Source: Pseudidiomarina marina
Lineage (GTDB): Bacteria > Pseudomonadota > Gammaproteobacteria > Enterobacterales > Alteromonadaceae
Assembly: GCF_003987045.1 (NCBI RefSeq)
Contig: NZ_PIPZ01000001.1
Span: 372,001-436,000 of the forward strand
Length of the DNA: 64,000 nucleotides
Direction: 5' to 3'
Of this stretch, positions 9,776 through 37,362 are shown piece by piece. The notes beneath the pieces are model-generated. The model was not told the origin of the DNA and did not search any database. It saw nothing but the letters and a program-made list of their open reading frames with translations. Each line of letters starts with the position of its first letter. The first letter of the stretch is position 1. Made by a program: the position numbers and the translations under genes.

Positions 9776-9780
9776 GGTAT

Positions 9781-11034: not shown

Positions 11035-11088
11035 TGAGTGACGGTTTTATCGTTGGTACTTTACGGGAAATAGCTTGTAACTATCCTA

Positions 11089-14813: not shown

Positions 14814-14848
14814 ATGGGGCGATAACCCACGGAATGATGCTCTGATAA

Positions 14849-14886: not shown

Positions 14887-14909
14887 CCCCCTCATCCACC
14901 ATCCGTTGA

Positions 14910-14989
14910 TTAACGAGGCCTTAATCGATGCTGTTTCACCAGCGTATAGAATACCGGGATGACAATGAGTGTGAGGATAGTGGAAGAAA
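14910..14989 (-). pseudogene. C-terminal stump of a CzcA/CusA-type RND pump
   Basis: On the minus strand the sequence reads SSTILTLIVIPVFYTLV followed by KQHRLRPR and a stop at 14910-14912. This is the conserved last transmembrane helix of HME-RND pumps (compare SSTLLTLVVLPALYYLV at the end of the complete pump at 18817). It is cut exactly at the left end of the IS3 element at 14990, so the rest of the pump has been lost. Confidence 0.8.
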
Positions 14990-15030
14990 TGTAAATACCC
15001 CATTTCTAACACAGTCATCTCGTAGAGTAT

Positions 15031-15840: not shown

Positions 15841-15845
15841 AGGTG

Positions 15846-16106
15846 CTAGAGCTTTTTTATTATGTCTTCTTGCATTTGTGACTTGAGGCTCAGCACAGCA
15901 TACATCTGCTTAAGCCGGCGGTTTTCTTCTTCCAGTTCTTTTAAGCGGCGCACATCAGACGCTTCCATACCACCGTATTTTTCGCGCCATTTGTAAAACG
16001 TTGAATTACCGATGCCGTACTTACGGCAAATATCTTTCACCGGCATCCCGGCTTCGGCTTCTTTTAAAATCGCCACAATTTGGCTTTCAGTCATGCGTTT
16101 GCTCAT
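15846..16106 (-). CDS. IS3-family transposase OrfA
   Basis: 86 residues: helix-turn-helix (MSKRMTESQIVAILKEAEAG, then VKDICRKYGIGNSTFYKWREKYGG) followed by a leucine-zipper coiled coil (RRLKELEEENRRLKQMYAVLSL). This is the usual IS3 OrfA, which binds the IS ends. It is intact and followed by orfB; an OrfAB fusion would need the usual -1 frameshift near their junction. Confidence 0.9.
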   Translation of the reverse strand: MSKRMTESQIVAILKEAEAGMPVKDICRKYGIGNSTFYKWREKYGGMEASDVRRLKELEEENRRLKQMYAVLSLKSQMQEDIIKKL

Positions 16107-17902: not shown

Positions 17903-18804
17903 AACTTAAGCAGTCAGTGATTGCGATAATCAGTGTCGCTGTTTTTTCAATGTCTGCAGTTGCCTCGCAAGAGCAACATTCAGAACACGAAGCACCTCAT
18001 ACAAACTTGAGCGATGTGGCCATAAAAAATGCTGAAATAACCATAGCCAAAGCTGGGTCGCAGGAGATTAACGTAAAGCAAACGATGTTTGGTGTTATTG
18101 CACCCAATAACAATAACATCGTGCATGTCGGCGCCAAGTATAAAGGTCTTGTCACTTCGCTACCGGTGAATATCGGTGATGTGGTGAAATCAGGGCAAAC
18201 GCTTGCGGTGGTTGAGAATGTTACTACCGGCACGGCGTTTGCGGTGAAAAGTCCAATTAACGGCGAAATCACCGAGCGATATACCAATATCGGCGAAGTG
18301 GTAGAGCAAAAGCCGTTATTTGAAATCTTGGATTCTTCATCGGTTTGGGTGGAGCTCTCAGCGTTTCCGGAAGACATTGAGTCTCTGCGAGAGAATCAAA
18401 CGGCCTTCGTTTACGACCTGCATAATCACAAGACCGTTGAGGGTGTTGTGTCTTATATATCCCCTAAAATGAGCGGCGGACATATCGCTCGGGCGCGTGT
18501 GCAGTTGCCGAATGAGTCAGGCCATTGGCGGCCAGGCATGCACGTCAAAGCTGACGCGGTTACCGACATTTTTACCGCAAGCTTAGCAGTCGATAACGAC
18601 GCGATTCAGCGCTTAGAAGATAAACCGGTGGTGTTTGTTCAGGAAGGTAACCGTTTTGAAGCCCGTAGCCTTAAGTTAGGCCGGACGGATGGCGAATTTA
18701 CCGAGGTTTTATCAGGTTTAGAAGGCGGCGAACGTTATGTCGTTGAGAATAGCTATTTGATCAAAGCTGACATTCTCAAACAAGGTGCTGGCCACAGCCA
18801 CTAG
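17899..18804 (+). CDS. RND periplasmic adaptor (CzcB-like)
   Basis: 301 residues, shorter than CzcB proteins with extra metal-binding ends. Signal peptide, then a His-rich stretch (EQHSEHEAPH), barrel-sandwich halves (VKSGQTLAVVENV, FAVKSPINGEITERY) and beta-barrel domain (GHWRPGMHVKADA). Lacks a long alpha-hairpin. Ends GAGHSH. Couples the CzcA-type pump to the CzcC-like channel. Confidence 0.87.
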   Translation: MKLKQSVIAIISVAVFSMSAVASQEQHSEHEAPHTNLSDVAIKNAEITIAKAGSQEINVKQTMFGVIAPNNNNIVHVGAKYKGLVTSLPVNIGDVVKSGQTLAVVENVTTGTAFAVKSPINGEITERYTNIGEVVEQKPLFEILDSSSVWVELSAFPEDIESLRENQTAFVYDLHNHKTVEGVVSYISPKMSGGHIARARVQLPNESGHWRPGMHVKADAVTDIFTASLAVDNDAIQRLEDKPVVFVQEGNRFEARSLKLGRTDGEFTEVLSGLEGGERYVVENSYLIKADILKQGAGHSH

Positions 18805-18816
18805 GGAGATTCAACA

Positions 18817-21800: not shown

Positions 21801-21936
21801 GTTTAATAGCGGTGTGGGTGCCGAAGTGCAGCGGCCGTTAGCGACAGTGGTTATTGGCGGTATTGTATCGTCAACATTGCTGACGTTGGTGGTGCTTCCA
21901 GCGCTTTATTATTTAGTGCAGCGTTTTAAAGAATAG
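18817..21936 (+). CDS. czcA: Divalent-cation efflux RND pump (CzcA family)
   Basis: 1039 residues, full-length HME-RND. Transmembrane helix IV has DFGIIVDGAVIVVEN, the D-x-x-x-x-D...E proton-relay pattern of CzcA/CnrA pumps. At the positions where CusA has its three methionines this protein has IAMHALR, PSVADTF and IEMRFNE, so the Cu/Ag site is not conserved. Zn, Co or Cd is the likely substrate. Ribosome-binding site AGGGAGA at 18803-18809. Confidence 0.9.
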   Translation: MIDALIRFTVERRWLVLAATLLVAAAGIYSTLKLPIDAVPDITNVQVQINSEAPGYSPLETEQRISYPVETAMAGLPKLDYTRSISRYGLSQVTVVFEEGTDIYWARQQISERLQKVRGEVPQGIEPTMGPIASGLGEIVNYVVRAEEGATNANGKPYTPEQLRTIQDWIIKPQLVKVPGVTEINSVGGYEKQYQVAPIPGRMLAYKVTMQDLFKALELNNRNAGAGYIEKNGEQWLVRSPGQLKTLDEIRNVVITKRDDAPVRVSDVAEVKLGEQLRTGAATSGESEVVLGTAMMLIGENSRIVAQNVADKIDEVQRSLPDGVLIETVYNRTSLVDKTIATVEKNLFEGAVLVIVVLFILLGNVRAALITACVIPLSMLFAVSGMVANKVSGNLMSLGAIDFGIIVDGAVIVVENALRRLGNAQQRLGRVLTTKERLIEVTHGTREVFNPAVFGVLIIMLVYLPIFALSGVEGKMFHPMAFTVVAALLGALIFSVTFVPAAIAIFVRGNIQHGENRIMRAARKVYQPVLRQTLKLPVVIILIGFGLFAVSMFQASRMGTEFLPQLDEGDIAMHALRIPGTGLQQSIDMQKDVESVVSEFDEVKLVFSKIGTPDVATDPMPPSVADTFIILKERKDWPNPEKPKEQLVAEIRTAVQELPGNKYEFTQPIEMRFNELIAGVRADLGVRIYGDDLQTLKQLGDSAASVIRKVDGAADVRVEQMTGLSTLSVHPKRDHLALLGLTVADVQSAIQAAVGGVQAGIIYEGDKRFKLMVRLNDDWRDSIEQLKSLPVDVSADNPELQYVPLGEIAELSLKSGPNQINRESGKRNVIVSANVEDRDLGSFVADVQDAINAEVNLPAGYWVNYGGTFEQLQSASQRLSLVVPLALLLIIGLLYSAFNSISSALVIFTGVPLALTGGIFALALRDMPLSISAAVGFIALSGVAVLNGVVMLTFIRQLLRDGLPLRDAVFEGAQQRLRPVLMTALVASLGFVPMAFNSGVGAEVQRPLATVVIGGIVSSTLLTLVVLPALYYLVQRFKE

Positions 21937-21954
21937 AGAGTTAGGTCATTGAGC

Positions 21955-21992
21955 GCAGTTAGAGCCCGCTTTTATGAGCGAGCTTTAACTGC
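21955..21992 (+). terminator. Long hairpin after czcA
   Basis: GCAGTTAGAGC...GC (from 21955) pairs with GC...GCTTTAACTGC (to 21992) over about 16 positions with one mismatch; loop TTTATGA. No T-run. Likely ends or protects the czc transcript. Confidence 0.5.
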
Positions 21993-22150
21993 CTCAATCC
22001 ATGCGAAAGTCGCCCTGGTTTTGGATGACGGTAACGTCAGGTTGTAGGCCTGTGTTACTAAGCGTGTTACATCCGTTGCTCAGAAACGAAAAAGTGTTAA
22101 TCTTCAATCGTGTTACTTACCTTGTTACTAAATCTTCAGCTTTAGTTTTT
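21993..22150. other. Gene-free spacer between czc operon and ISL3 element
   Basis: About 160 bases containing several GTGTTAC/TTGTTAC repeats (around 22051-22130). No gene or clear site identified. Confidence 0.3.
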
Positions 22151-22208
22151 GGGTATACGGATTTAATGGTTGATGGGGCACCTTCACCCCATCAATCTGA
22201 TACCACCC

Positions 22209-23497
22209 TCAGATGGTTGATAGATCGACTCCGTAGTTGAGTTCCTCTGCGAAGTCCGGCAGTCCGTAACCGATGGTTTTCTTGTAGAAAGGAGAGACCT
22301 TCGCAGTCGGTGCCTTCTTCTTGTGCTTCGTGGTGTAGAGCATTCGTGCCCGCATCACCTCGAAGGAGTAACCGCGCCCTTCACGGTTCTTGTCCTTGGC
22401 CAGTCGGTTGATGGACTCCGTGTAAGCGTTGGTGACGGGCATGTCCGTCTCGAAGTAGGTCATGGTCTCTTCGCGCCAGTTTCCCACTGCCCTGACCAGA
22501 TCGCTCCAGACTTCCTTTTGGCCCTTCGGGATGGTGGCTATCCACTCGTCCAGGGCGGCTTCTGCCTGGAGCCGTGTGGTGGCGTCCCAGATGCCGTAGA
22601 AGCGCTCCTTGTGCTCGTAGGCGGCCAGCAGTTGCGGGAACGCGCCTGTCCAGGTCTCCATGATGAGGCGCTCCCGGTCTGAGACTTCGTGAGCGCGTTT
22701 CAGCAGGATTTACCGGTCTCCCTTGAGAGTCCGGCTCTGGGACGGTTTCAGCTCCTTTCTGAGGCCCTTGCGCACTCTCTCTAGGGCATCGTTGGCCATG
22801 CGCACCACATGGAACTTATCGACCACGATACGGGCCTGGGGCAGCACAGCCTTGACCGCTGCCCGGTAGGGGTTCCACATGTCCATGCTGACGATCTCGA
22901 CCTTCTGCCGGTCTTTCAGCTTCATCAGGTAGTTGGTCACCACGTCCTGGCGGCGGGTGGCCAGCAGGTCGAGCAGGGTTCGCTCCTCAATGTTGGTCAG
23001 AATGCAGCGGTAGCGCTTGTTCAGGTATAGCTCGTCAATGCCCAGGATGCGGGGCGTCTCGAAGCGGTGCCAGCGCCCCAGGAACTCGGCGCGGGCGTTG
23101 AAGATGTCGCGCACCGTCTTCTCGTCCAGGCCGGTCTGTGCCGCCACAAAGGTGTAGGGGTGGTTGAAGGATTCCTTCTCCACGTACTCATGCAGCCGCA
23201 GTGTCATACGGAATCCGTCCACCATCTCCGGTAGCTGGGGCCTGAATGTTGTCTTGCAGGCCCGGCAGGTGTATCGGCGGCGGACCACCCAGAGAGTGAC
23301 CCGCTTGCCGTGGATGGGCAGATCACGATAGGGAACGTCACGCTTGCCGAACCGTACGAACTCACCCTGCACGCCGCATTCCTCGCAGGCGATGGGATCG
23401 GGCACGTCCACCTGGAAGTGCATTTCGTCGTCGGTTGATTTGAGCCCAGTACTTGGTATTGCGGCAGGTGAAGGATGTTGTCGGGAAGTTCGGTCAT
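22209..23497 (-). pseudogene. ISL3-family transposase, frameshift plus nonsense
   Basis: N-terminal start MTELPDNILHLPQYQVLG at 23497 continues into a different frame (MHFQVDVPDPIACEECG, zinc-finger part) after an apparent one-base deletion near 23441-23447. A TAA at 22710-22712 then interrupts it (KGDR-stop-ILLKRAHEV). The DDE domain is otherwise readable: ILGIDELYLNKRY, VSMDMWNPYRAAV, VVDKFHVVRMAN, and TNAYTESINRLAK. Two independent lesions mean the element cannot move by itself. Confidence 0.88.
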
Positions 23498-23518
23498 GGT
23501 GTTGTATAGGCGTAGGTG

Positions 23519-24031
23519 TCAGTCAGATCCATCCGGCTCGGCATTGGTGTTTGCTTTTTTACCCAACAAGCTGCTGGAAACGAAAAGTAAGGCACCGAGG
23601 ACAATTGCAATATCAGCCAGGTTGAAGGCCGGCCAATGCCAGTCTCGCCAATAGAAATCAAAGGAATCCACAACATAGCCGCGAAAGACCCGGTCAATCA
23701 GGTTGCCCATGGCGCCACCGAGGATAAGACTGTAAGCGATGGCTTCTCCTTTATGACGATTTTCAAGGATCAGCTTGATCAGAAAAATCGAGACCACTAC
23801 CGCGATTCCGATAAAAAAGTAGCGCTGCCAGCCTCCACCATTCGCAAAAAGACTGAATGCGGCACCGGTGTTCCATAGGTGCACCCAGTTAAAGAACGGG
23901 GTCACCGAAACATACTCGCCATAGGCCATTGATTGCTGCACCAGCCACTTTACAGCCTGATCAGACGCTGCCAGCAGGCCCGATATGGACAATAGGGCAT
24001 ACGGCGAGAGCTTTTTGCCAATAATGAGCAT
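23519..24031 (-). CDS. lspA: Lipoprotein signal peptidase (signal peptidase II), element-borne copy
   Basis: 170 residues with four transmembrane segments and the aspartyl-protease motifs: WNTGAAFSL, GGAMGNLIDRVFRGYVVDSFDF (first catalytic Asp in the NLIDR region) and FNLADIAIVLG (second Asp). Cleaves the signal peptide of diacylglyceryl-modified prolipoproteins. It lies 3 bases downstream of the CDF gene, forming one operon. This is a mobile copy; the housekeeping lspA is expected elsewhere with ileS. Confidence 0.92.
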   Translation of the reverse strand: MLIIGKKLSPYALLSISGLLAASDQAVKWLVQQSMAYGEYVSVTPFFNWVHLWNTGAAFSLFANGGGWQRYFFIGIAVVVSIFLIKLILENRHKGEAIAYSLILGGAMGNLIDRVFRGYVVDSFDFYWRDWHWPAFNLADIAIVLGALLFVSSSLLGKKANTNAEPDGSD

Positions 24032-24034
24032 TAT

Positions 24035-24931
24035 TTAACCCTTCAACGCCAAAATGCGTCTGGCACCGTTAAGTACAATGCCCCCCGCGATGGTGCCGAT
24101 AATCAGATCCGGATAATTGGAACCGGTCCACGCGACCAGGGCGCCGGCGGTGATGACCCCCAGGTTGATCACCACGTCGTTGGCCGAGAATATCCAGCTT
24201 GCCTTCATGTGCGCCCCGCCTTCCCGATGTTTGGATATGAGCAGCAGACAACTGGTATTGGCAATCAATGCGACGAATGCGATAGCCATCATCACCAGCG
24301 ATTCAGGCTCACTACCGAATACAAAGCGTCTCACCACCTCTACGAGCACGCCCACAGCCAAGATCAGTTGCAGTACACCAGCAAGATGCGCGGCACGTAC
24401 CTGCATTTTCACGCTATGTCCAACCGCATAAAGGGCAAGCCCGTACACCGCCGCATCGGCAAAATTGTCCAGGGATTCTCCAATCAGGCCGGTGGACTGG
24501 GCGATCAGACCGGCAGTCATTTCCACCACGAACAGAAGTGCATTGATGCCGAGCAACCAGCGCAGGGTCCCGGATTCTTGCTTAGCAGAAGCTGCCGAAA
24601 ACTCGGCGGCCTTGATGGTCTCTGGATTTGCAGCGACGGTTTCCTGAAGCGAGGCGCCTAGCCCCAAGGTCTTTAGTTTCGAGGTGACGGGCTCGACCTC
24701 GCCGTCATGCACGACCTTCAGCCGGCGGTTCGACAAGTCGAAGGACAGCGCCCGAATCTCCTCAAAGCCGTTCAGGGCTAGGCGAATCATTCGTTCTTCT
24801 GATGGACAGTCCATCTTCGGCACGGCATAAACACTGACCCATCTCCCTGGCGCCTCGGAGGAGGCCTGTATATCGGTATCCGCTGCGGACGTTGCATCTC
24901 CGCCACAGGCGCCACCACAGGATTTGCTCAT
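24035..24931 (-). CDS. Cation diffusion facilitator metal exporter with N-terminal metal domain
   Basis: 298 residues from ATG 24931 (GGAG upstream); an in-frame codon at 24952 is rejected. N terminus has CGGACGGD and an HMA-like domain (VYAVPKMDCPSEERMIR...LDSNRRL-type layout). Then six transmembrane segments, with SLDNFADAAVYG in helix II (modified from the usual HxxxD) and SANDVVINLGV in helix V (usual HxxxD again as N/D). The CzcD-like cytosolic C-terminal domain is missing. Probably exports Zn, Cd or Pb under the MerR regulator next door. Confidence 0.82.
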   Translation of the reverse strand: MSKSCGGACGGDATSAADTDIQASSEAPGRWVSVYAVPKMDCPSEERMIRLALNGFEEIRALSFDLSNRRLKVVHDGEVEPVTSKLKTLGLGASLQETVAANPETIKAAEFSAASAKQESGTLRWLLGINALLFVVEMTAGLIAQSTGLIGESLDNFADAAVYGLALYAVGHSVKMQVRAAHLAGVLQLILAVGVLVEVVRRFVFGSEPESLVMMAIAFVALIANTSCLLLISKHREGGAHMKASWIFSANDVVINLGVITAGALVAWTGSNYPDLIIGTIAGGIVLNGARRILALKG

Positions 24932-24964
24932 GATACGACTCCACTTGAACAATGTTGTGGTACC

Positions 24965-24995
24965 ATTTTAAACTATAAAGCTACTATAAGGTCAA
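24965..24995 (-). promoter_or_regulatory. MerR-type promoter for CDF-lspA with 19-bp spacer
   Basis: On the minus strand: -35 TTGACC (24990-24995), 19-bp spacer (24971-24989) containing the imperfect dyad TATAGTAG-CTTTATAG, -10 TAAAAT (24965-24970). The overlong spacer with a centred dyad is the hallmark of MerR/ZntR/CadR-activated promoters. Confidence 0.8.
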
Positions 24996-25026
24996 TAGAG
25001 TAAAGAATCCGTTGGGGAGGAGGCTG

Positions 25027-25434
25027 ATGCGCATTGGTCAGTTGGCGCAGTTGGTAGGGGTCGAAACACAGACGATCCGCTTCTATGAACAGCAGGGCTT
25101 GTTGCCGCCGCCTGATCGGCAGGACAACGGTTACCGTGTCTATACCGAGAAGCATGGTGAGGGGCTGGCCTTCATCCGTCGCTGCAGAATCCTGGGCCTG
25201 TCACTGGCTGAGATTCACGAACTACAGAGCTATCAGGACGACCCTCATCAGCCTTGTACCGCCGTCAACGCCTTGCTCGATGATCACATCTCTCATGTGC
25301 GGTCGCAGATAACCGCTCTACAAGTGCTTGAGAAACAACTCGTTTCACTGAGAGCGAGTTGCAACGATGACCGGGAAGTTGAGGCGTGTGGGGTTCTTGC
25401 TGGAATTAGCGAAGGAAACATGCACCAGCAGTAG
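25027..25434 (+). CDS. MerR-family metal-responsive regulator (CadR/PbrR/ZntR type)
   Basis: 135 residues, ATG 25027 after GGAGGAGG. N-terminal winged helix (MRIGQLAQLVGVETQTIRFYEQQGLLPPPDR), long dimerisation helix, and C-terminal effector loop SCNDDREVEAC with a further Cys near residue 60 (RRCRILG) and 80 (QPCTAV). The Cys set resembles the Cd/Pb sensors. Divergent from the CDF-lspA operon and sits beside a 19-bp-spacer promoter it should control. Confidence 0.88.
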   Translation: MRIGQLAQLVGVETQTIRFYEQQGLLPPPDRQDNGYRVYTEKHGEGLAFIRRCRILGLSLAEIHELQSYQDDPHQPCTAVNALLDDHISHVRSQITALQVLEKQLVSLRASCNDDREVEACGVLAGISEGNMHQQ

Positions 25435-25463
25435 TGAAGCATCAACCAGATAATCCGATGAGA

Positions 25464-25752
25464 TGCCGGTCTGTCTCACTCTCATGCAAAGGTAAGATCA
25501 ACCATTTAATCCGCTTACCCATTATTGAGATGGTTTACAATCCAACTCGACGTCATACAAAAAATAACAGAGTGTCGCCAAACAACTTTAAGCGTGAATA
25601 TTTTAAACGGGTAGAAGGTGTCTGGAAAAATCAGGCCTTACCAATGGTCGGCGAGGCGCCGCAGTTAATAACGGATGAAGAATGACATCAGGAACGTACT
25701 TCTGAAGATATGAATCATCTTGAATCTGAAGTAAATTCAAATATAGATTAAC
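25464..25752 (+). pseudogene. IS3-family OrfB tail remnant and gene-free DNA
   Basis: From about 25521 to 25615 the plus strand encodes IEMVYNPTRRHTKNNRVSPNNF, the conserved end of IS3-family OrfB (compare IExFYNPKRRHxxNxxxSPxxFE). Nothing upstream of it is OrfB, so it is only a scar, truncated by the ISL3 element. The rest of the stretch holds no gene I can support. Confidence 0.6.
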
Positions 25753-26248: not shown

Positions 26249-26446
26249 GTTGATTAATAACCAATCGCCTAATTGATTCGGTTAGTAGATTAATTTAATT
26301 AATCTTAATACCTAAAATCGTTTAAAATTCCCAAAAAAAAGCATGCGAAAAGTTTAGACCCCACCAAAAACGCCTGTCTGTGCACTACCAAACTATTTGC
26401 ATACCTGAATAATTATCTCTGTATATAAGTTGTACGGAGATTGAAT
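26249..26446 (+). promoter_or_regulatory. Upstream region of the giant recombinase operon
   Basis: AT-rich, about 200 bases without a gene. It includes the TTAATTTAATTAATCTTAA dyad near 26290 and ends in GGAG (26436-26439) serving the gene at 26447. Confidence 0.35.
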
Positions 26447-27085
26447 GTGTTTAAAGCACCAGCACGATTATATAAAGCATCTGAATTAAAGAAGACAAGC
26501 GCAGCAAAAACGATTCTAGAACTTTTGCATGGTTTGGAGTTACAACTACCGCGACTTGACACTCTTAGCCAGCGATATCGCGAGTCGATAATTTACGCAA
26601 GTCCAGTCATTGTTCGGGAATTACCGAAGCCTGCGCATGCGGAAAATGAAAAGCGTGAGTTTACTCCGGCTCAGCTGGTAGCTGGATTCGTGACTTACAA
26701 GCTCATGTTGCAAACGAATGACTCGTACAACGTTGTTGCGATGTCAGATCGCGAGGCGAATGACGATTTCTTGTGCGCGCTTGCTTGGTCTGATTTATTT
26801 CGCTCGTTGATCTATTTCAAAACAGATGCGTTAGCGTTGCTATTTAAGCGTTTACAATCGTCTTGTCCTGGTGAAATACAACATGCGCTGTTCGCGGGAA
26901 AGTTGACGCAAGAGCGCTTTCTACAACATGTATCAATATCGAAACATACGCTGCAAGAACGATTAAAACTTCTAAATAAAAACCCAACCAAACCCTCCGC
27001 TTTGAATACATCTGACCAAGCTTCACAACAAAGCTTAGTACCCGAAATGCCGACGCTCGCGGAGCTGTTGGCGGGGGACGAATGA
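26447..27085 (+). CDS. 212-residue protein coupled to the giant recombinase-like protein
   Basis: Not recognised. GTG 26447 is chosen since GGAG lies seven bases upstream; TTG 26441 is possible but too close to that site. Mainly helical, basic N terminus (FKAPARLYKASELKKTSAAK), central region REFTPAQLVAGFVTYKLMLQ, and a C-terminal tail MPTLAELLAGDE. Its stop overlaps the next ATG (ATGA, 27082-27085), a sign that the two proteins act together. Could be a DNA-binding or accessory factor for recombination; no evidence for enzyme motifs. Confidence 0.6.
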   Translation: MFKAPARLYKASELKKTSAAKTILELLHGLELQLPRLDTLSQRYRESIIYASPVIVRELPKPAHAENEKREFTPAQLVAGFVTYKLMLQTNDSYNVVAMSDREANDDFLCALAWSDLFRSLIYFKTDALALLFKRLQSSCPGEIQHALFAGKLTQERFLQHVSISKHTLQERLKLLNKNPTKPSALNTSDQASQQSLVPEMPTLAELLAGDE

Positions 27086-30000
27086 TGGTTGAACAAAATC
27101 TTGCGGAACAACTTGCAAAGCTTTCAAATGACATGACGGCAGAACGTAGTAGAGGACGAAAGCCGCGCATTACAGAACATCAAATAGGGAGAGTTCTCAA
27201 GAAACTCGGTTTATTTTATCTAACGGATAGCAGCGCTAATTTAATCATCGCTTATCTTGCCCGCTTGCACTTTGATTTCAAAAACAAACTCGCGGCCAAA
27301 GTTGAAGAACATAATATCGCGTATCAGCATCTTGACTACTTTCTCACCAAACATGCATTGCTGTATCCAAAAAATCCGACTCAAAGCGACCTCAAGCGCA
27401 TCAGCAATGAGTTGAATAATAAACTCGATAAAAGTCCGCTTGCGGCAATGCTTGCAACCAAAAAAACCGTTCAAAACTGTGTTGATGAGAACTGGCGGCT
27501 TCTTCAGTACTACACCGCAGTTGCCTGTATTTCGCTCTTAGTTAGCCATATCAAATTTGTATCGGCAAAGAACGAGAATATTTTGATGCCGGCTATCGCT
27601 GCGGGGCTCAGGCGCGTGCGCTTATCTCAATCAAAGCTTCAGTATGGTTTGATGTTGGCAGATTTAGAGCTTGATGGCTCGCTCAAAGATTTTGTCGAGA
27701 ACTGGAAAGTTTTTAATTCAAAAGTGAATCAACGCGAAGGGGAACCGCAGTCTAAAAATATATCTGAAACTATTGCCTATCAACGTTCTGGTCCGCTTCA
27801 GAATTTGATTCAAAAATTTTGGGATAACGTTTCTAGTCAACCAAATTATGAGCGCACAACGGTTACCAACCGTCGTTCAAAAATGCGCTTCTCAACGTCA
27901 AATTCCCGTCCGTTTCGAATCAAACCGGCGGTAACTCGGCGTAAAGCAGACTTGCGCGATGGTGAAGAAGTAGCCGTAGAGCAAAAGTCAGATTTTGAAA
28001 TTCTAGAATCGGAAGCTAGACACACTCACGAATTCAAAACGAATAATTACGCCAGACAAAAACAAGCAACGGCCATACTCGCGCGTAATATCCGTGCGGA
28101 ACTTGGTATTCCGGCTATTCCAGAGCTTTTAACTGTTGGGCACATGAAGCTGCTGATTTCTGCGCTTGAGTTGCACAACGAAGATTCTAAATACTATCAA
28201 GTTGACGCCTGGATTTTCCTTATTATCTACTTTTCGCAAACGTACGAATTTTTACGGAAGGCTTATTTTGAAAAAAAATATAAAGTTGATGACTTACGGG
28301 CAACACTTACCGCTAGCGGCATGTTCTACAAGCTTGAGCGAAATTTATCAACCCACGCTCGAGTTGAAAAGGTGGGTTTGCTTGAAAGTCGTGAAAATGA
28401 ATTTTCGATTTCGCTTCCTAGCTCGTTGACTAACGAGCGCGTATTTCCAAAAAATGAAGATGATTTCCCCAGTGAAGCTGATATTAGCGCTCGGTTGCAG
28501 GATATCTGTGCTGCACAGCAAATTTCACGTGTATCGATAAACCAGCTGGCGTCCTGGCAGTTCTTATTTCTAAGTCGATTTTGGCCTGAACGCTGCTCAG
28601 TAGGCATCGTTGCTGGCTTTCAGCCTAGCGATTGGACGCCGCTATATTACTGTACGTTGGAAGTCTTTGAGGTGCAGCGTCGGCACGCCGCTTTCTGGTC
28701 AAAAATGTCATTTGAAACGGACCATTTGCACTTGGCTCATAACTTTGACGTTATATATCCAGTCGAATATGAAAAGAAGAGGTATGGCTCAACGCTGCGA
28801 CTAAAACTCGATAAAGTTGAAAAGATTATTGGGAATTTTCGAAATTATATTGAGCAGCTGAAGCAAAGTATCGACTCTGAATCCTCTGCGGTATCGCCAT
28901 CAATTGAAAAATTACAGCAGCATAGGCAAGAGTTGCATAACGCGTACACCGTTTATGTTTTGCTAATTGTAAAAATGCTGACCGGAATTCGGCCCGTGGA
29001 TGGCTATTTCTCATCGATTGCTGATTTTGATTTTGTGAATGACCGTGTCTACATCAACGATAAACAAAAACGTGAAGGCATGGCGAGAATTGTACCGATG
29101 TGTGCAACACTAAAACGCCAATTAGTTGAATATATTGCCTATCTTACTGTCGTTGCGAATGAAACAGTCGCTACCCCTGCATACCTTGCACCTACGGCCG
29201 AGGCCGCCTGTTTGAGCCAAGCTGAACCATTTCAGGTTTATAGAAACGGTAATCTGGAGCCGGTAACTCCCAGCTTTCTAGAGTCATACCTTAGTCATCT
29301 ATTTCCAGTACCCCTAAATTTTTCTCGCCATGTTTTGCGCACATGGTTTTATAAATATTCGTCGCTCAATTCAGTCATTGTTGATGATTTTATGGCGCAT
29401 GACTTGGAAGGCCAAATGAGCCAAGGCTTATATTCGGCGTATTGCGCGAATGACGAGGAGATGCTCCGTCGCGAGCTTGAGAGGTTTTCCATTGCGATGC
29501 TGCTAGTCGTGGTCGATAACCCGGTGAAACCGCATGGTTCTTTGGAAACAAACGAATTTACTTCTTTACCAAGCTTTATCGATCAGCGAAGCATATCTCA
29601 GTTTGAGAAAGCTACAGCTCGCATGCGACGTTTAAAGAAAAAAATTCAACGCGAAAAGCGGATAGAGAAGAGCGTGAAAGAATTTATATCTGATTCTTGC
29701 CCTGAGCTGCTGCGGGGGGAGGGAACCGATCAACAATTGAGTGTATGTGTGAATAAGGTGCGAGAATATATTGACTCAAAGTACCAAAAGGCAGAGCTAC
29801 ATATTGCGTCGTTTTATTTGATGAAGGTATGTGATCTAGTGAATGGCCGTTACGGTCGTTCAATCACCTTGCCTACGGTACCAGTCAAGCTAACGCGCGA
29901 GCCGGCAATGCGTGATCCATTGGCGTTAAATGTAGCCCAACGCGCGGCTATCGTGAACAAAATTTTGCAGAGTATTGAGTTTAACATTGATGAATTAAGT

Positions 30001-32973
30001 GATACCGAAATTCGCTGCTTGCTTGTATTGGTTACCGCAACGCAATCATCGCAAAACTCAAAACGCTGGCTACAAAAATTATTTACGCAGAGTTATGAAG
30101 GTTTGAAGCTGCACACATCAGTACTAAACAACGATCGCTTGATATGGCTACCTTTAGCAAGCAACGAAACATCCGTAGTAAACGACTTGAATCATGAATC
30201 TGGTGCGGTACACCTTGAATATATTTTTCTGAACGGATTACAAGTAGGGTTGGTTACTGAACTAATAGCGCGAAAATCTAAATCGATAAATGACAAGCTC
30301 AGTGATATACCTAAAATTCTTCAATCAAGCAAATTATTAGCGCGCCTGTCTCGACCTTTTCTTTCGTACGATGGAAGTTCGGTTGCGGTAGCAGCGTTAT
30401 TTAAGTTTGCAGTTGATGCTGTTGCGAGCGTATGTCGCGATTATTCGTTTGCTTTGCGCCATACGGCGAATTCGATGATCGAAACCTATTCGCTACCACA
30501 AGAAAATTTTGAGTATTCTATACAGCCAACGCTTAATGACGTGCTGACACCACCAAGCGTCGCTAAGTTGAGTTTTGAGGCGAAAAACGCGGATGAACCT
30601 CAAAGCGAGGGACGAGAAAAACGCAAACGCGTGAAGCAAGCGATTGGGTTGGATTCTTTAGACCTTTATCAAGCTCTCACCAGGCTATTCAGAGCTAACA
30701 GCAATTTGAGCAAGAACCAAGTCATTGTTGAACTTGAAAAATTAATAGAAAAGTATGCTGCAACAGATTCCGTTGTGTATTTGCTAAATTGGTTCATTTT
30801 TCATCTCAAGATTCGAAAAAACGGGGTAAGTTCCGTTAGACGTTATCATTCAGCTATCACATTGAATTGGCTTATGGCTACTGTTGTTATCGATGATCTG
30901 TCAGAACTATCAGGTGCGGACTTTCACGATTTATATCGCAACGCAATTGAGTTTACACAGAGTGAAACGCAAGATGATATCGAAAGCGATGTTGGTGCGG
31001 AAGACTCGCCTGGCGCTGCAAAGATAGAAGCAGGGCTATCAAAAGATGAGCGCGAACACGAAAAGAAACGCCATCTAAAGCGTCACGAAGAACAAATTGA
31101 GCGCGAAAAAAGCTTTAAGTCATATAACTACTTATGCGATACATTTGAGCGCCTGCACAAGTACCTCCAAAGCGAGTACCAATTGCCGCCTTTGGATGAG
31201 CCTATCCGGTCTACAATTTCACAACGAAAGGAGCATGTGCGTGCGGGGTATATACCTCACCAGCTCTATCAAGCTATTCTTGCGAAATTGCCGGTCACGC
31301 GTGGTTGCGACGATGATACAAAATTTGCACTGCAAATCATCACTATTCTGGCGTACCGAACGGGGATGCGGATTAATGAAATTTTAACCTTAACAATTAA
31401 AGATATTACAACGATAAAAGAGCGCTGGATACGCGTAAGAAATAACCCATTTGGACGATTAAAGTCTATCTCATCGCGTCGAGATGTTGCTGCTTTCTGC
31501 CTACTGACCAAGGACGAACTACGACTGTTCAATATGTGGGTAGAGCGACGTACCGCACGCTGTAAAAAACGTAATGAACTTCTTTTTTGTGACGCTGATT
31601 CGCCGAGAAAAGTTTGGCCAGACTGGCTTATAAAACAGTCAATTGTTGCTTGGATGCGGGCATTGAGTGGGCTCAAAAAATTGACATTTCAGCACTTTCG
31701 GCACACCGCATTAAGTAATCTTCAACTTCTTATCGAGAATGAGATTGAGCTGTTTTGCTGTTTGACTGGGCATGACGAAAAAAGTGCACATCAAATCATC
31801 AAGGGGACGCTAGGTGGTGTCGCGGTCAATATTGATCGTTACTATGCACTGGCTATGGTGGCCGGACATACCTCACCATCAGTAACATTCAAGAGTTACA
31901 TCCATTTTTCAGCACTAATACGTCATATAAAAATATCTGAAACGTACTGGCACTATACACGCGACGAAGTAAAAGCATTTACCACGTTATCGGACAAACA
32001 AATCGCGCAGATTTGCCTGCCAGATAAGAAGTCCGAAAGCTTAAACAGAAAGCGGCCGCGACGAAAATCAGATTATGTTGATGCGAAAACTTTACTTGAG
32101 TACCTAGCGAAAACTAATAAGACGTATATCCGCGAAATCACTCCTCGGCCCACAAAAGTCATTGAATTTGCGTCAGATACGTTACTCCTTAAACCGAGCG
32201 CGAGTGATGTGCATGATATTCTACAAGCCGTGGTGGACGGTAAATCAAATCGTGAAATTAGTCAGCTATATCAAGTTGACGAGAGCTTAATTGAGCGTTA
32301 TCGCGAGCAGGCGAGAATTTTGTTAAGAGAGCATACATTAATAAAAAATCGGCGGCTGATAAGCAAACAAGACGAAGCCAAAAATGTATATATGCCGTTG
32401 AAACCTTATACCAAAAAAGAACGAAATATAGCACGAAATATGATCAACCAAATGGTTAATACACCATCCGTTGAGAAGCAAAAACTAGTATTAGCCTTAG
32501 CTGACTATTTTATAAAAAACATTCACCCAGACGAGCCCGGTGCGCGTTTCAGAGATGAGGAAACTTTAAACTGGTTTGTCAGTAGCATGCAGCCATATGT
32601 TAGTTTAAAAAGCTGGTTTATTCGCTTGGCGACAAGAAAAAAAGACAAAGCAAATGCGTTAACGTTTCTAACATCGCTAGTGATAACGACGAAGCGACCA
32701 GTGGTTAAAATAAAGAAGCAGGGTAAGCCTGAGTTTTACTTGCGATTAAAGCATCCAGATCCGGATAAGCGGCAACAAAACGCGAAATTTCAATCGACGT
32801 CGTTACTTAAATACGTATTCGCGATGGTCGCAATTATGGTTCGTGCGGAATTACCAGACGACGTATTAGAGAAAGGGGACGATGCCGACATTAGCCAGTC
32901 TAAAAGTGATGGTGATGCCGGCATCAATGAGCTAAATAACACGAAGATACTCGAGTTGTCCGATCCGAGCTGA
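27082..32973 (+). CDS. 1963-residue protein with at least two tyrosine-recombinase-like domains
   Basis: Uninterrupted 1963-codon frame. First catalytic-like region, residues 620-790: LTGIRP (R637), a Lys-rich beta turn near 661, HVLR (H750/R753), MAHD (H773), LYSAYC (Y784 or Y787). Second, 1395-1610: YRTGMRINEI (R1430), Lys near 1461, FQHFRHT (R1540, but Q1537 where the HxxR His is usual), AGHTSPSVTFKSY (H1596, Y1606). A SAM-like segment (RRYHSAITLNW) precedes the second. An LRHT motif at 1125-1128 hints at a third, degenerate copy. A helix-turn-helix-like segment lies at 1715-1740. Overlaps the converging HD gene by 42 bases. No matching family is known to me. Confidence 0.8.
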   Translation: MMVEQNLAEQLAKLSNDMTAERSRGRKPRITEHQIGRVLKKLGLFYLTDSSANLIIAYLARLHFDFKNKLAAKVEEHNIAYQHLDYFLTKHALLYPKNPTQSDLKRISNELNNKLDKSPLAAMLATKKTVQNCVDENWRLLQYYTAVACISLLVSHIKFVSAKNENILMPAIAAGLRRVRLSQSKLQYGLMLADLELDGSLKDFVENWKVFNSKVNQREGEPQSKNISETIAYQRSGPLQNLIQKFWDNVSSQPNYERTTVTNRRSKMRFSTSNSRPFRIKPAVTRRKADLRDGEEVAVEQKSDFEILESEARHTHEFKTNNYARQKQATAILARNIRAELGIPAIPELLTVGHMKLLISALELHNEDSKYYQVDAWIFLIIYFSQTYEFLRKAYFEKKYKVDDLRATLTASGMFYKLERNLSTHARVEKVGLLESRENEFSISLPSSLTNERVFPKNEDDFPSEADISARLQDICAAQQISRVSINQLASWQFLFLSRFWPERCSVGIVAGFQPSDWTPLYYCTLEVFEVQRRHAAFWSKMSFETDHLHLAHNFDVIYPVEYEKKRYGSTLRLKLDKVEKIIGNFRNYIEQLKQSIDSESSAVSPSIEKLQQHRQELHNAYTVYVLLIVKMLTGIRPVDGYFSSIADFDFVNDRVYINDKQKREGMARIVPMCATLKRQLVEYIAYLTVVANETVATPAYLAPTAEAACLSQAEPFQVYRNGNLEPVTPSFLESYLSHLFPVPLNFSRHVLRTWFYKYSSLNSVIVDDFMAHDLEGQMSQGLYSAYCANDEEMLRRELERFSIAMLLVVVDNPVKPHGSLETNEFTSLPSFIDQRSISQFEKATARMRRLKKKIQREKRIEKSVKEFISDSCPELLRGEGTDQQLSVCVNKVREYIDSKYQKAELHIASFYLMKVCDLVNGRYGRSITLPTVPVKLTREPAMRDPLALNVAQRAAIVNKILQSIEFNIDELSDTEIRCLLVLVTATQSSQNSKRWLQKLFTQSYEGLKLHTSVLNNDRLIWLPLASNETSVVNDLNHESGAVHLEYIFLNGLQVGLVTELIARKSKSINDKLSDIPKILQSSKLLARLSRPFLSYDGSSVAVAALFKFAVDAVASVCRDYSFALRHTANSMIETYSLPQENFEYSIQPTLNDVLTPPSVAKLSFEAKNADEPQSEGREKRKRVKQAIGLDSLDLYQALTRLFRANSNLSKNQVIVELEKLIEKYAATDSVVYLLNWFIFHLKIRKNGVSSVRRYHSAITLNWLMATVVIDDLSELSGADFHDLYRNAIEFTQSETQDDIESDVGAEDSPGAAKIEAGLSKDEREHEKKRHLKRHEEQIEREKSFKSYNYLCDTFERLHKYLQSEYQLPPLDEPIRSTISQRKEHVRAGYIPHQLYQAILAKLPVTRGCDDDTKFALQIITILAYRTGMRINEILTLTIKDITTIKERWIRVRNNPFGRLKSISSRRDVAAFCLLTKDELRLFNMWVERRTARCKKRNELLFCDADSPRKVWPDWLIKQSIVAWMRALSGLKKLTFQHFRHTALSNLQLLIENEIELFCCLTGHDEKSAHQIIKGTLGGVAVNIDRYYALAMVAGHTSPSVTFKSYIHFSALIRHIKISETYWHYTRDEVKAFTTLSDKQIAQICLPDKKSESLNRKRPRRKSDYVDAKTLLEYLAKTNKTYIREITPRPTKVIEFASDTLLLKPSASDVHDILQAVVDGKSNREISQLYQVDESLIERYREQARILLREHTLIKNRRLISKQDEAKNVYMPLKPYTKKERNIARNMINQMVNTPSVEKQKLVLALADYFIKNIHPDEPGARFRDEETLNWFVSSMQPYVSLKSWFIRLATRKKDKANALTFLTSLVITTKRPVVKIKKQGKPEFYLRLKHPDPDKRQQNAKFQSTSLLKYVFAMVAIMVRAELPDDVLEKGDDADISQSKSDGDAGINELNNTKILELSDPS

Positions 32974-34002
32974 TTTTTGAGCGCATGAGTTAGCGTTAGA
33001 AAATGCCACGTTTTCATTACCAAATTCTGCGCTTAGTCGGTCCGCTGCTTGCACCGCATGAGCGATAGCGAATTTTGCCGGTTGACCATAGCGGGCACCT
33101 GGCGTTGCGCATGTCCAAATATGTCGGAGGGCTTCGGCATAACGATATTCTTCTTGCTCTAAAACGGCTAAAGACTCAGCGCAAATTTCCAGAGTTTGTG
33201 CGCTGTGGTTGGTTAAGCGACCATTCAGTGACATATACCCGTTGTCATCGTAACTACGAATCTTGCCAAGATCGTGGAAAAGCGCCCCAACGGTGGCGAG
33301 TTCCTTCTCCGTCGCAGACCGGTATAGTTCAATATTATTCACAATACATGCGACTTCAATTGAGTGCTCAAGCAAGCCACCTGGGTACGAATGATGATAT
33401 TTAGTACTTGCCGGTGCCGTAAGAAACTTTTTAGCAACCACTGGTTGCTCTAGCACCCGACAGACAAAGCGTTGCAACGAATCACTCTCAATATTCTCAG
33501 CGGTCTTGATAAGCTTTTCAAAAATAGCTTTGTTTGGGCACCAAATCCGCGGTAATGTTGCTAGCGTTTTTGTATTTTTGATGTCGTCTTGAGTAGCACG
33601 ACGAATATCATCAATAACTATCGTTCCGCGAACTAGCGGGTTGCTCGGGAGGTATAAATTAGCAAAACCTTTCCGAGGTTTGAAATATTCAACTTTCCCC
33701 GTAACGTAAAAGCATTCATTCACCGAATTGGCGTAGGGCGGTTGCCAGTTATGCGCTTTACGCTCTGGCCAAAGAATAGCGTCAATATCGCCGGTGTTGT
33801 CGCTTAGCCTCAGTAAAACGAAAGGCTCATTGTTTCTCGCTATTTTAATATTTACAGCCGTTAGTCGATAAACACCAGTGATATATTCAACGTGACAGGC
33901 ATCTTTTATGGTATGCAGTCGGTGGTGCACAAAACCATTTGCATTAGTCTGAATGCCAGTTCCGAAGTTCGATTTAGGGTAAAAATTTGGACTATCAAAC
34001 AT
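32932..34002 (-). CDS. OB-fold plus HD-domain protein (YhaM-like 3'-5' exoribonuclease family)
   Basis: 356 residues. Start ATG 34002, chosen since AGGAG lies 9 bases upstream; longer frame to 34071 overlaps the integrase. N-terminal OB-fold (YRLTAVNIKI, FVLLRLSDNTGDIDAILW, ECFYVTGKVEYF) then an HD phosphohydrolase domain with HHSYPGGLLEHSIEV and ALFHDLGKI. This is the layout of YhaM/CBF1 nucleases. One base separates it from the integrase stop, so both are on one transcript. Natural role on islands unproven; RNA or DNA trimming is plausible. Confidence 0.78.
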   Translation of the reverse strand: MFDSPNFYPKSNFGTGIQTNANGFVHHRLHTIKDACHVEYITGVYRLTAVNIKIARNNEPFVLLRLSDNTGDIDAILWPERKAHNWQPPYANSVNECFYVTGKVEYFKPRKGFANLYLPSNPLVRGTIVIDDIRRATQDDIKNTKTLATLPRIWCPNKAIFEKLIKTAENIESDSLQRFVCRVLEQPVVAKKFLTAPASTKYHHSYPGGLLEHSIEVACIVNNIELYRSATEKELATVGALFHDLGKIRSYDDNGYMSLNGRLTNHSAQTLEICAESLAVLEQEEYRYAEALRHIWTCATPGARYGQPAKFAIAHAVQAADRLSAEFGNENVAFSNANSCAQKSARIGQLEYLRVI

Positions 34003-34003
34003 A

Positions 34004-35191
34004 TTAGATCTCCTGTTCATCGTGTGAACTTGAAAGACTGTTTTTAATAACTTTGTCGAACAATGAACCATCTTTACGCGTTAAATTAGGCACATAGCGC
34101 GAATATATCTTGAAGAGCATCTGAGTGTTGGCATGGCCAAGTTGGCGCGCAATCCATTCTGCATTTTCGCCAGCAGCGAGCCAAAGCGATGCCGTTGTGT
34201 GGCGCGTCTGATAGGGCTTTCGTTTAGCCAAGCCAAGATACTCAAGGGTTGGATACCAAATACGCTTGGTGACGTTGCGATGGCACAGGTTGGAGCCTTC
34301 TGGTGAACAAAAGACGAATTTGCTTTTTCCGTATGTCATTCGCTTTTGCGCCATGAATGCGTCATAAACTATCTGGCTCATATCGATTTCACGAAATGAT
34401 CCGTCTGTTTTTGTTTCGACAATCTCATTGTCGACAATGGCTTGGCGCACGAGAACTTGTCGATTTTTTAAATCTACATGTTCCCAATACAAACCGTCTA
34501 TTTCGCCGGTTCTCATGCCTGTGAAAAAACGAACGGCGTAATAGTTTTGAAAGTCGGGCCGAACACCGTCTAGAAAGCGGCGTATTTCGTTTAAATTAAA
34601 TGGCTCGATATCTGAGCGTGGCACTTTCAGTGGCTTGATATTTAGCCAGGGGTTGCTGAATTCAAAACGCTCAGAGGCTTCGGTGATAATCATGCGCGCA
34701 TAGCTCATGATTTTGTTAATTCGATCGTTCCCGAGCTTTTTCCCGGTAGGCGTTGTCGTCGCAAGTAGCTTCGAGCGAAAATCCATGATTTTAGCTTTGC
34801 TAATTTCATTTAGCTTAAACTCACCTAGGTGCGGTAAAAGATAGGCATCGAGTGTATAGCGAATGTTCTTTTGATAACTTTTGCGCCATTCCCCCTCGCG
34901 CTCCCGAAACCAAAGTTCAGAAAAACTCTCGAACAGTGGTGTAACGGATTCATGAGCTGCAGCGCGTAGTTTGGCTACCTGAGAAAGCTTCTTACCGCGC
35001 GCGGAATTCGGGAAATATTCTTCGTACTTGAAAGTTCCAAGAGTTATCTCAGCTTCCATTCGCTCAATTAGTACTGACAACTTTCGACGATTGCCCGCAG
35101 TATCTTTAAATGCGGTGGTTTCGCGACAACGTTGGCCCTCGTAGCGGAAGTCAACAATAAGCTTGCCTGCTCGGCTATTAATTGATGCCAT
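34004..35191 (-). CDS. int: Tyrosine integrase of the island
   Basis: 395 residues. N-terminal arm-binding domain (INSRAGKLIVDFRYEGQRC), SAM-like core-binding domain (KSYQKNIRYTLDAYLLPHLG), catalytic domain with FFTGMRTGEIDGL (Arg), TKTDGSFREIDM (Lys), YQTRHTTASL (Arg, with Tyr where the HxxR His is usual), LGHANTQMLFKIYSRY (His and Tyr nucleophile). AAGGAG precedes ATG 35191. About 2.1 kb from tRNA-Val, whose 3' end faces it. The best candidate for integrating this island into the tRNA. Confidence 0.88.
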   Translation of the reverse strand: MASINSRAGKLIVDFRYEGQRCRETTAFKDTAGNRRKLSVLIERMEAEITLGTFKYEEYFPNSARGKKLSQVAKLRAAAHESVTPLFESFSELWFREREGEWRKSYQKNIRYTLDAYLLPHLGEFKLNEISKAKIMDFRSKLLATTTPTGKKLGNDRINKIMSYARMIITEASERFEFSNPWLNIKPLKVPRSDIEPFNLNEIRRFLDGVRPDFQNYYAVRFFTGMRTGEIDGLYWEHVDLKNRQVLVRQAIVDNEIVETKTDGSFREIDMSQIVYDAFMAQKRMTYGKSKFVFCSPEGSNLCHRNVTKRIWYPTLEYLGLAKRKPYQTRHTTASLWLAAGENAEWIARQLGHANTQMLFKIYSRYVPNLTRKDGSLFDKVIKNSLSSSHDEQEI

Positions 35192-35895: not shown

Positions 35896-37050
35896 ATGAA
35901 TGACGTTAAGGACGACTTTGAGTGCTTAATAGTTATAGACGCCAATAAGTACCTAGATCTTTACCGAAGAGATACGGGGCTACAAATTTTAAAGTACCTT
36001 AGTCGAGTCAGCGAGTACATATTTGTTACTTCTCAGCTAGTTAACGAAGTAAACAGAAATAAAGTAAAAGTTCTATCTGATTTCCTTGCGAATAAAATTA
36101 AGGCGGTCTCAATTGACAATGTGAAATTACCTGAGCATTTTGGCGATGGATTTTCTGGTGATAAATCGAGTTTGTCGGAGGAGCTTGGCGAGATCAAAAA
36201 TACGGTAGGCCGGAAAGCGCAGCAACTGAAGGACTATAGTAGAGAACTACTAGCGTTAACCACAAAATCCGAAGATGAAGTTTCAATATCCCTCTCTAGT
36301 ATATTCTCTCGCGCAGTTGAGGCAAACGATGATGAACTTGAACGTGCTCGGCTTAGAAAAGAGCTGGGAAATCCCCCTGGAAAGAAGGGGCCTTTGGGTG
36401 ATGAGTTACTTTGGGAACAACTTTTAACAAAATTGCGTGGCAAAACCAAACTATGGCTGATAACCAGTGATAGTGATTTTGCTACAAAACATGAAAAATC
36501 CTTGTTTCTAAATGCTTTTCTAATGCAAGAAATCAAAGCGTTACCAAATTCGCCGCAGATTTTCGTATTTGATGAAACATTAGGTGGTATTCGAGATTTT
36601 GCTGAGGTTAACGGTATTGATCTAGATATCGAGCTTTCACGTGAAGAAATAGATGAAATTAATTTAGAAGAGCAGCAACTTAATCTTTCCGATAGACTGC
36701 GAGATTACTTCCAATTATATGGTACGGGAATAGCTGGTTCTGTCGCTAACCAGTTAGCAGCCCTCGAGGCTAACCCTAGTTTTCAAAGCATGCTAGAGGC
36801 TCAAAAATATTGGAACAGTGATATTTTAAAGACAGCGGCACAGATGGCTAGTTTAGAGAGTAACCCTTCAATGAGGGCATTTCGCGAATCTAAAAGTGGC
36901 TTGGTCGGTCAAGCACAAAAATTTGCGGCAGAAATAAATAAGGCCGGCAACGGGATGTTGCGTAATGCAAAGGCTCGACAGAACAATGACTCCGAAGACA
37001 ATCAAGACAGTGATGACTCAGAGAGCTCAAGATCTGATTCAAAAGAATAA
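35896..37050 (+). CDS. PIN-like domain protein (DUF4935 type)
   Basis: 384 residues. PIN nuclease acids are placed at D15 (LIVIDANKYLDLY), D169/E170 (PLGDELLWEQLL) and D192/D194 (LWLITSDSDFATKHE), the DUF4935/PIN_8 pattern. A middle helical insert (80-150) and a C-terminal region with two AALE/ASLE-SNPS repeats follow, ending in a long Asp/Ser tail (from about 365). Likely an RNase used as toxin or in defence; that is inference. Last gene of the island. Confidence 0.65.
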   Translation: MNDVKDDFECLIVIDANKYLDLYRRDTGLQILKYLSRVSEYIFVTSQLVNEVNRNKVKVLSDFLANKIKAVSIDNVKLPEHFGDGFSGDKSSLSEELGEIKNTVGRKAQQLKDYSRELLALTTKSEDEVSISLSSIFSRAVEANDDELERARLRKELGNPPGKKGPLGDELLWEQLLTKLRGKTKLWLITSDSDFATKHEKSLFLNAFLMQEIKALPNSPQIFVFDETLGGIRDFAEVNGIDLDIELSREEIDEINLEEQQLNLSDRLRDYFQLYGTGIAGSVANQLAALEANPSFQSMLEAQKYWNSDILKTAAQMASLESNPSMRAFRESKSGLVGQAQKFAAEINKAGNGMLRNAKARQNNDSEDNQDSDDSESSRSDSKE

Positions 37051-37209: not shown

Positions 37210-37285
37210 AAAAACGCACAAAACATCAAGCCAACCAACACGGCTGCAAGTCAATAAATTCAAGGGATTTGGAACTTTAAGAAGA

Positions 37286-37362
37286 TGGTGCGTCCGAGTA
37301 GACTCGAACTACCGACCCCTACCATGTCAAGGTAGTGCTCTAACCAACTGAGCTACGGACGC
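37286..37362 (-). tRNA. valT: tRNA-Val (GAC)
   Basis: 77 nt cloverleaf on the minus strand: acceptor GCGUCCG pairing with CGGACGC, D-arm GCUC...GAGC, anticodon stem CUACC/GGUAG with loop UUGACAU (anticodon GAC), T-arm with GUUCGAGUC, and encoded CCA. The 3' end (37286) points to the island, the usual attachment site for tyrosine integrases. A second copy of the 3' end was not found in the window, so the far end of the island lies to the left of position 1 or is lost. Confidence 0.93.

Follow-up and report, generated by a model that had tools for sequence, protein, structure and literature searches.

A natural fusion of two tyrosine recombinases in Pseudidiomarina marina, with a possible active site divided between tandem domains

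The fused gene and its parts

The DNA considered here is a stretch of 64,000 nucleotides from Pseudidiomarina marina (contig NZ_PIPZ01000001.1, positions 372,001 to 436,000), referred to below as the window. It contains a gene (27082-32973, + strand) that encodes, in one stop-free frame, a giant protein of 1963 amino acids in which two tyrosine recombinases (YRs), YR1 and YR2, are joined. Its gene unites, as a natural fusion, two recombinase genes that most relatives carry side by side. Judging by its residues, YR2 is a complete tyrosine recombinase, and YR1 would be a tandem of two YR domains, a and b, with a composite site made from both. Taken as a whole, this reading of a fused YR1-YR2 module has, in our estimation, about an even chance of being correct.

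The original prediction had located this frame and described a single chain with two distinct YR-like catalytic regions. This is borne out by the residues and by profile comparisons, with gene fusion as the origin of the arrangement, and all ten residues that were named are found at their numbers (R637, H750, R753, H773, Y784 and Y787 in the first region; R1430, R1540, H1596 and Y1606 in the second). The giant protein is the sole match to itself within its own genome. Pfam PF00589 (Phage_integrase) matches the second region only (residues 1412-1547, E 1.8e-12), and the integrase families of PHROGs match the same part. The first region of the window protein has no Pfam match, and no Pfam or NCBIfam family reached its cut-off over YR1 in the scans made; in four of ten homologues Phage_integrase matches the first region below its cut-off (E 2.2e-4 to 0.065). 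A PADLOC scan gave no match.

All parts of the protein are encoded on the + strand. YR1 begins with an N-terminal extension (residues 1-340, 27082-28101), which is missing from the short YR1 forms of about 460-480 amino acids; these consist of domains a and b alone. Domain a (residues 345-545, 28114-28716) is a degenerate YR-like domain, recognised by weak profile similarity and without strongly conserved Arg, Lys or His. Domain b (residues 560-815, 28759-29526) is a YR catalytic domain with R637, K661, R669, N746, R749 and H773, in which position 784 is variable. The fusion junction lies at about residues 820-850 (29539-29631), where the separate genes of 73 of 100 loci meet or overlap. It is followed by the N-terminal part of YR2, called c' (residues 850-1225, 29629-30756), which has no strongly conserved residue, and by domain c (residues 1395-1640, 31264-32001).

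Domain c is a complete YR catalytic domain with R1430, K1461, R1467, Q1537 at the His-II place, R1540, H1596 and Y1606. Its full catalytic set is kept across the family, with R1430 and K1461 present in 86 of 86 sequences, R1540 in 85 of 85, H1596 in 84 of 85 and Y1606 in 85 of 85. The His-II place is occupied by His in 64 of 85 sequences, Tyr in 17, Lys in two, and Gln and Arg in one each, the Gln being that of the window. A profile search of the PDB with YR2 matched XerA (E 7.7e-4).

Relatives and the origin of the fusion

A tblastn search of plasmid records matched 14 records, six of which were read. In all six the recombinases are two genes, YR1 (738-767 amino acids) followed by YR2 (995-1128 amino acids); the Aeromonas plasmid record is unannotated and was analysed through its open reading frames (ORFs), its YR1 ORF measuring 790 amino acids from the first start. 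A small gene precedes YR1-YR2 in five of the six, and none is annotated in L007. One 'plasmid' record, L003 (NZ_AP026896.1), measures 4.9 Mb, has 18 annotated features and is probably a mislabelled chromosome.

Searches of genomes sampled at the level of class, family, phylum and order, sets that overlap and contain the window's own genome, gave matches in 12 of 369, 44 of 395, 23 of 398 and 31 of 394 genomes, respectively. Two contig scans of genomes gave no match and three loci. No relatives were found among phage records, nor in viral contigs with search patterns that were few and short. Sixteen genomes are represented only by a short match (G356, G526, G713, G764, G767, G795, G823, G947, G994, G1011, G1079, G377, G1196, G1321, G1364 and G1413).

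One hundred homologous loci were scanned with domain profiles. Both recombinases occur in one ORF in 24 of them, with lengths of 1712-1963 amino acids in 21 and of 1151, 1278 and 1403 in the remaining three. In 73 loci YR1 and YR2 are neighbours on the same strand, at offsets of -243 to +14 bp and with 60 of the 73 pairs overlapping; the other three loci carry YR1 without a neighbouring YR2. L193 was omitted from the scan, since 37 of 41 200-mers sampled are identical to L051, which shows the two to be one contig. In L071 a shorter second YR1 copy of 374 amino acids (6565-7689), with its Box I Arg gone, stands directly before the intact YR1, as if it were a decaying duplicate; this partial ORF was excluded from the counts. 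One genome carries two YR1-YR2 modules (L169 and L170, G411:C4), about 38 kb apart and in opposite orientation.

On a tree of domains b and c (86 rows, built by a quick method and with several long branches), the fused state requires three changes. Four fused sequences, the window's among them, form one clade with support 100, another 18 form a clade with support 92, and L031 stands alone. The arrangement of all fused rows as one clade was rejected by the approximately unbiased (AU) test (p-AU 2.5e-4), made with a simpler model on 30 rows, 12 fused and 18 split, a group picked after the tree was seen. On these sequences the fused forms belong to more than one clade, and the AU test is compatible with repeated fusion or with later splitting.

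The two genes of most relatives could also be taken to mean that the single frame arose through an error of assembly or annotation. This is refuted by recurrence: the fused frame is found 24 times, in numerous genomes and in at least two clades, and three pairs show purifying selection. We give such an error practically no weight. The original prediction had taken the length of the stop-free frame as a sign of selection. The ratio of nonsynonymous to synonymous changes (dN/dS) is 0.13-0.15 in three pairs of fused homologues, which supports selection on such frames; the calculation was made on homologues other than the window's protein.

Conservation in YR1

The conservation of YR1 was evaluated on 91 non-redundant rows, obtained from 100 ORFs by removing four with a short b domain (L157, L180, L183 and L201) and five near-copies (L051, L052, L167, L196 and L204), and invariance was computed for columns filled in at least 70 rows. 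Only six columns are fully invariant, namely Y523 (89/89), R637, K661, R669 and R749 (91/91), and H773 (90/90). In this alignment of 90-91 sequences, domain b therefore has Arg-I, Lys, Arg-II and His-III in the order of YRs, and Asn (N746) occupies the His-II place in 88 of 91. The original prediction had read H750-x-x-R753 as the motif of the second arginine. This was mistaken, as the true Arg-II is R749, with H750 present in 70 of 91 sequences and R753 in 52 of 91.

The tyrosine is where domain b departs from other YRs. Position 784 (Y784 in the window, 29431-29433, + strand) is the canonical nucleophile place of domain b because it is so placed by the profile alignments of b with domain c (P 6.9e-7) and with a conventional integrase (P 7.1e-7); in the alignment with c, 784 falls one column away from Y1606, and K661 and K1461 are not paired. 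At this position Tyr is found in 24 of 88 sequences, Phe in 22, His in 13 and other residues in the rest. There is no Tyr within six residues of it in 48 of 88 sequences and none within ten in 36 of 88. Across the family, domain b thus lacks a conserved C-terminal nucleophile after His-III, and Y784 is present in the window protein. The original prediction had named homologues without the Arg, HxxR, His and Tyr positions as evidence against a recombinase. In the first region the Arg, Lys, Arg and His proved invariant, the Tyr at 784 did not, and a tyrosine elsewhere, Y523, is invariant.

Y523 (28648-28650, + strand) lies in domain a, 114 residues ahead of Arg-I, in contrast to the usual C-terminal place of the nucleophile. 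It is the standout of its domain, the next-best columns being P446 (0.92) and L350 (0.75). The count of 89 arises from L025 and L030 being without that stretch. A domain-a profile match supports the alignment of Y523 in 83 of the 89 sequences, and in six (L021, L188, L190, L191, L192 and L210) it comes from the MAFFT alignment. The relaxed hhalign alignment covers the whole of domain a and places Y523 on 784 of domain b and on Y1606 of domain c. When the Tyr columns are masked on both sides, the register between a and b is unchanged (P 0.005).

A possible composite site and its rivals

Tyrosine recombinases normally work as a tetramer of similar subunits, every one of which has a pocket and, in most cases, a tyrosine of its own; Flp is a precedent for the delivery of the tyrosine between identical subunits. 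In YR1 the catalytic residues may be divided between two tandem YR domains. Domain b would keep the phosphate-binding pocket, made by R637, K661, R749, H773 and an Asn in place of His-II. Domain a would keep the nucleophile Y523 alone and place it into the pocket of b, within the chain or between chains. Five pocket positions and one tyrosine, all invariant, make the pattern of an enzyme, which favours a composite site. Each fused chain could then carry two working sites, the composite one (a with b) and the ordinary one (c), and these sites, assisted by the small partner, would excise or integrate an island. The fusion, the synteny of the two genes and the pattern of invariant columns are direct observations; we infer the composite site, its catalysis and the part that each half would take in movement. 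An active site split over two tandem domains, with trans-cleavage built into the chain and, together with YR2, two unequal sites per chain, is a tentative proposal that we put somewhat below even. If it is true, tyrosine and pocket have been kept in different domains through a long radiation, which would be a natural and fixed form of trans-cleavage, and half-of-sites control would become directly testable by mutating Y523 and K661.

In a few of the loci scanned, domain a stands on its own ORF. L030 carries it at 6707-8272 and domains b and c at 8230-12066, with an overlap of 43 bp, which may be another split point or a frameshift. Such a separate domain a would fit delivery of the tyrosine in trans, and it could also come from a frameshift. 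With c' as a fourth YR fold, a single chain would perhaps make up half of the synaptic tetramer, or all of it, ready assembled; the similarity of c' to YR domains is very weak (P 0.02 with c, 0.26 with b).

Several observations weigh against the composite site. The hhalign similarity of domain a is weak (P 0.0016 with b, 0.0072 with c and 0.034 with the integrase), and with fewer sequences the P values weaken to 0.01-0.04; four reversed profiles gave P 0.25-0.43 with a, and the control of b against its own reverse reached P 0.026. Domain a matches c' with P 0.01, c' itself not being established as a YR. Masking the Tyr columns loses the register between a and c at the C-terminal end, and in eight of 91 sequences no domain-a profile match is found in the same ORF. 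A PDB profile search with domain a retrieved no recombinase, and AlphaFold2 models of residues 300-850 and 836-1684, computed from 4-row alignments, were uninformative (mean predicted local distance difference test, pLDDT, 38.0 and 40.5). At the canonical place, Tyr is present at 784 in the window protein, L054 and L055, with Phe in L056 of the same fused clade; the window protein keeps Y784, so its domain b could be complete alone. Finally, the window and the repeat-bounded stretch of genome G544 each hold a conventional integrase as well, which could be the enzyme that moves the island. The PDB search with the whole of YR1 likewise retrieved no recombinase, and direct family searches with domain a found none save a weak match of L002 to the end of PF16795 (E 0.17), an archaeal phage integrase family. 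The homology of domain a to YR domains is likely, on these profile comparisons, and not established.

If domain b of the window protein uses Y784, both halves would be ordinary self-sufficient recombinases here and the loss of the tyrosine elsewhere would be decay in other lineages. The three proteins with Tyr at 784 agree with this. Decay would have to reconcile a position that varies freely between Y, F, H, T and others with a pocket whose remaining residues never vary, and it meets a Phe already in L056, within the same fused clade; we find this account improbable.

The composite site has also to be weighed against the idea that YR1 is a catalytically dead architectural subunit, whose pocket grips the DNA backbone at the core site, with Y523 structural and only YR2 cutting. 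This agrees with the 64 of 88 sequences without Tyr at 784 and with a domain c that is complete in nearly all members. A YR-fold partner poor in catalytic residues has been described in strand-biased circularizing integrative elements (SEs) and in GInts, and a DNA-binding role has been proposed for one such protein, Tfp of the SEs, which serves as the model here (PMC10214605). The Arg, Lys, Arg and His, invariant in 90-91 sequences, are in our judgement kept beyond the needs of DNA binding alone, and besides R669 the one further invariant residue is a tyrosine at the YR register. We consider a dead YR1 unlikely, yet a real alternative.

Small partner genes

Directly before the giant gene lies the small partner gene (26441-27085, + strand). 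It has 214 amino acids when counted from the first TTG, its true start being uncertain, and its last 4 bp (ATGA) are also the first 4 bp of the giant gene. Several loci have a small protein related to this partner (profile A3) encoded ahead of YR1. By position alone, among the non-redundant loci, 6 of the 23 fused and 55 of the 68 split ones have an ORF of 100-330 amino acids immediately upstream, and 8 of the 23 fused (250-305 amino acids) and 2 of the 68 split ones have an ORF immediately downstream. The side differs by clade, with the partner upstream in the window's clade and the downstream ORF of 250-305 amino acids in eight members of the other. A profile of six of these eight downstream ORFs showed no relation to the upstream partners (P 0.83). 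The original prediction asked whether homologues always travel with the small partner. Such a gene is common upstream of split loci, and 9 of 23 fused loci have a partner ORF on neither side.

Comparison with known recombinase systems

Domains b and c share with the Xer/integrase tyrosine recombinases (PF00589) the Box I Arg, the beta-hairpin Lys, the Arg-II and the His in this order, to which c adds the Tyr. The giant protein differs from them by having two catalytic regions per chain, and YR1 by an invariant Tyr that stands before Arg-I, in another domain.

The Gamma-Mobile-Trio (GmtX, GmtY and GmtZ) is a trio with recombinases in Gammaproteobacteria. The NCBIfam model of GmtY (NF040693, 441 positions, cut-off 340 bits), the one member of the trio compared, found no match over its cut-off, neither in the window's genome nor among the relatives, with one weak match to YR2 of L072 (E 0.0037), and membership was rejected. 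The trio is discussed in PMC12715929.

The SEs (IntA, Tfp, IntB and Srap) resemble the present module in having a multi-YR operon, overlapping genes and a small partner, and differ from it in their three YR genes, against one or two here. Tfp is alike in being a YR-fold protein poor in catalytic residues, and according to PMC10214605 it is without the RHRY motif. The four SE proteins of pAQU1, assigned from the gene order beside blaGMA-1, were compared with the domain profiles. Only IntA gave a clear result, a generic YR match to domain c (P 2.1e-6), next to weak matches of Tfp to c (P 0.0038) and of IntA to b (P 0.0059). With no specific relation between the four pAQU1 proteins and the domain profiles, membership in the SEs was rejected. 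The original prediction had not recognised the protein as a member of either family, and this stands on both comparisons. In six Tfp sequences, three of them partial (L130:14495-16336 and L230-L234), an invariant Tyr lies near the end of the YR-like part with an invariant Arg before it, a possible parallel to domain a.

GInts (ginABCD) combine several recombinases with one small protein, all needed for movement (PMC5385486). They are alike in this combination and are set apart by description, with three separate integrase genes and ginD against one or two recombinase genes per module here. Tn554 (TnpA, TnpB and TnpC) and RIT elements also bring two or three tyrosine recombinases together, in Tn554 with a small protein. 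They are likewise set apart by description, their recombinases being separate genes and, for Tn554, the number and order of genes differing from the window. TnpA and TnpB are reported to have the RHRY motif (PMC10214605), and RIT and TnpA are treated in PMC8138268. Nothing of the kind was found for fused or tandem tyrosine recombinases in the literature covered, mainly freely accessible and partly in excerpt.

Genomic setting

The module is widespread; plasmids carry it, and so do genomic islands in the cases examined. In the window the giant gene is followed by a convergent gene with OB-fold and HD domains (32932-34071, - strand), by a conventional tyrosine integrase with an Arm-DNA-binding domain (34004-35191, - strand) and by tRNA-Val(gac) (37286-37362, - strand), the likely insertion site of an island. 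An att-like segment (37246-37335) consists of the 3' part of this tRNA plus 40 bp. A second copy of it was found neither in the window nor in about 60 kb to the left of it in the same genome. G468, the genome of a congeneric species, does have such a copy, of 90 bp and 96.7% identity, about 37 kb away from its tRNA-Val. G468 has no match to the giant protein and shares with the window a metal-resistance cargo beside the same tRNA-Val (L147; window 561-15848 and 22137-25520), with about 92-99% DNA identity in the part read.

In genome G544 a pair of 157-bp repeats with 98% identity, which include tRNA-Val(tac), bounds a stretch of about 51 kb. The module is placed about 240 bp inside one end of this stretch and a conventional integrase about 5.6 kb from the other end. 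Beyond the right repeat, the flanking DNA matches that of all four relatives read, the match starting about 185 bp further out in two of them. Before the left repeat, the flank has no match in any of the four, one of which had too little sequence there to tell.

It is on this setting that the module may be viewed as passive cargo of an island moved at tRNA-Val by the conventional integrase. The integrase lies nearer to the tRNA than the module in the window, and in L056 the genes follow one another in the same way at tRNA-Val(gac). Such an integrase is present in 32 of the 100 fetched stretches, the HD gene in 21 and both in 18, counts that are lower bounds given the limited flanks. By the same token, 68 of 100 stretches, with flanks so limited, are without such an integrase. 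Among 24 loci scanned for tRNA genes, five have one (L053, L056, L060, L066 and L067); the module itself adjoins it in L053, L066 and L067, and in L060 the fused gene is preceded, at a distance of about 630 bp, by a tRNA-Met. These positions, and the place of the module at one end of the G544 stretch with the integrase further from the other, speak against passive carriage, which we regard as the less probable case, with a real if minor share of likelihood. The original prediction also asked whether homologues always occur at island ends, and this is the case in some loci only.

By eye, the region from 16655 to 25434 of the window holds metal-resistance cargo with RND efflux genes, a cation-transporter gene and an lspA-like gene, and a MerR regulator at 25012 was identified by a Pfam match. 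Within this cargo, at 22209-23423, there are two ORFs that by eye resemble transposase fragments. A gene with a PIN-like domain (35896-37050) separates the integrase from tRNA-Val, and the 3' end of this gene adjoins the tRNA in G468 as well.

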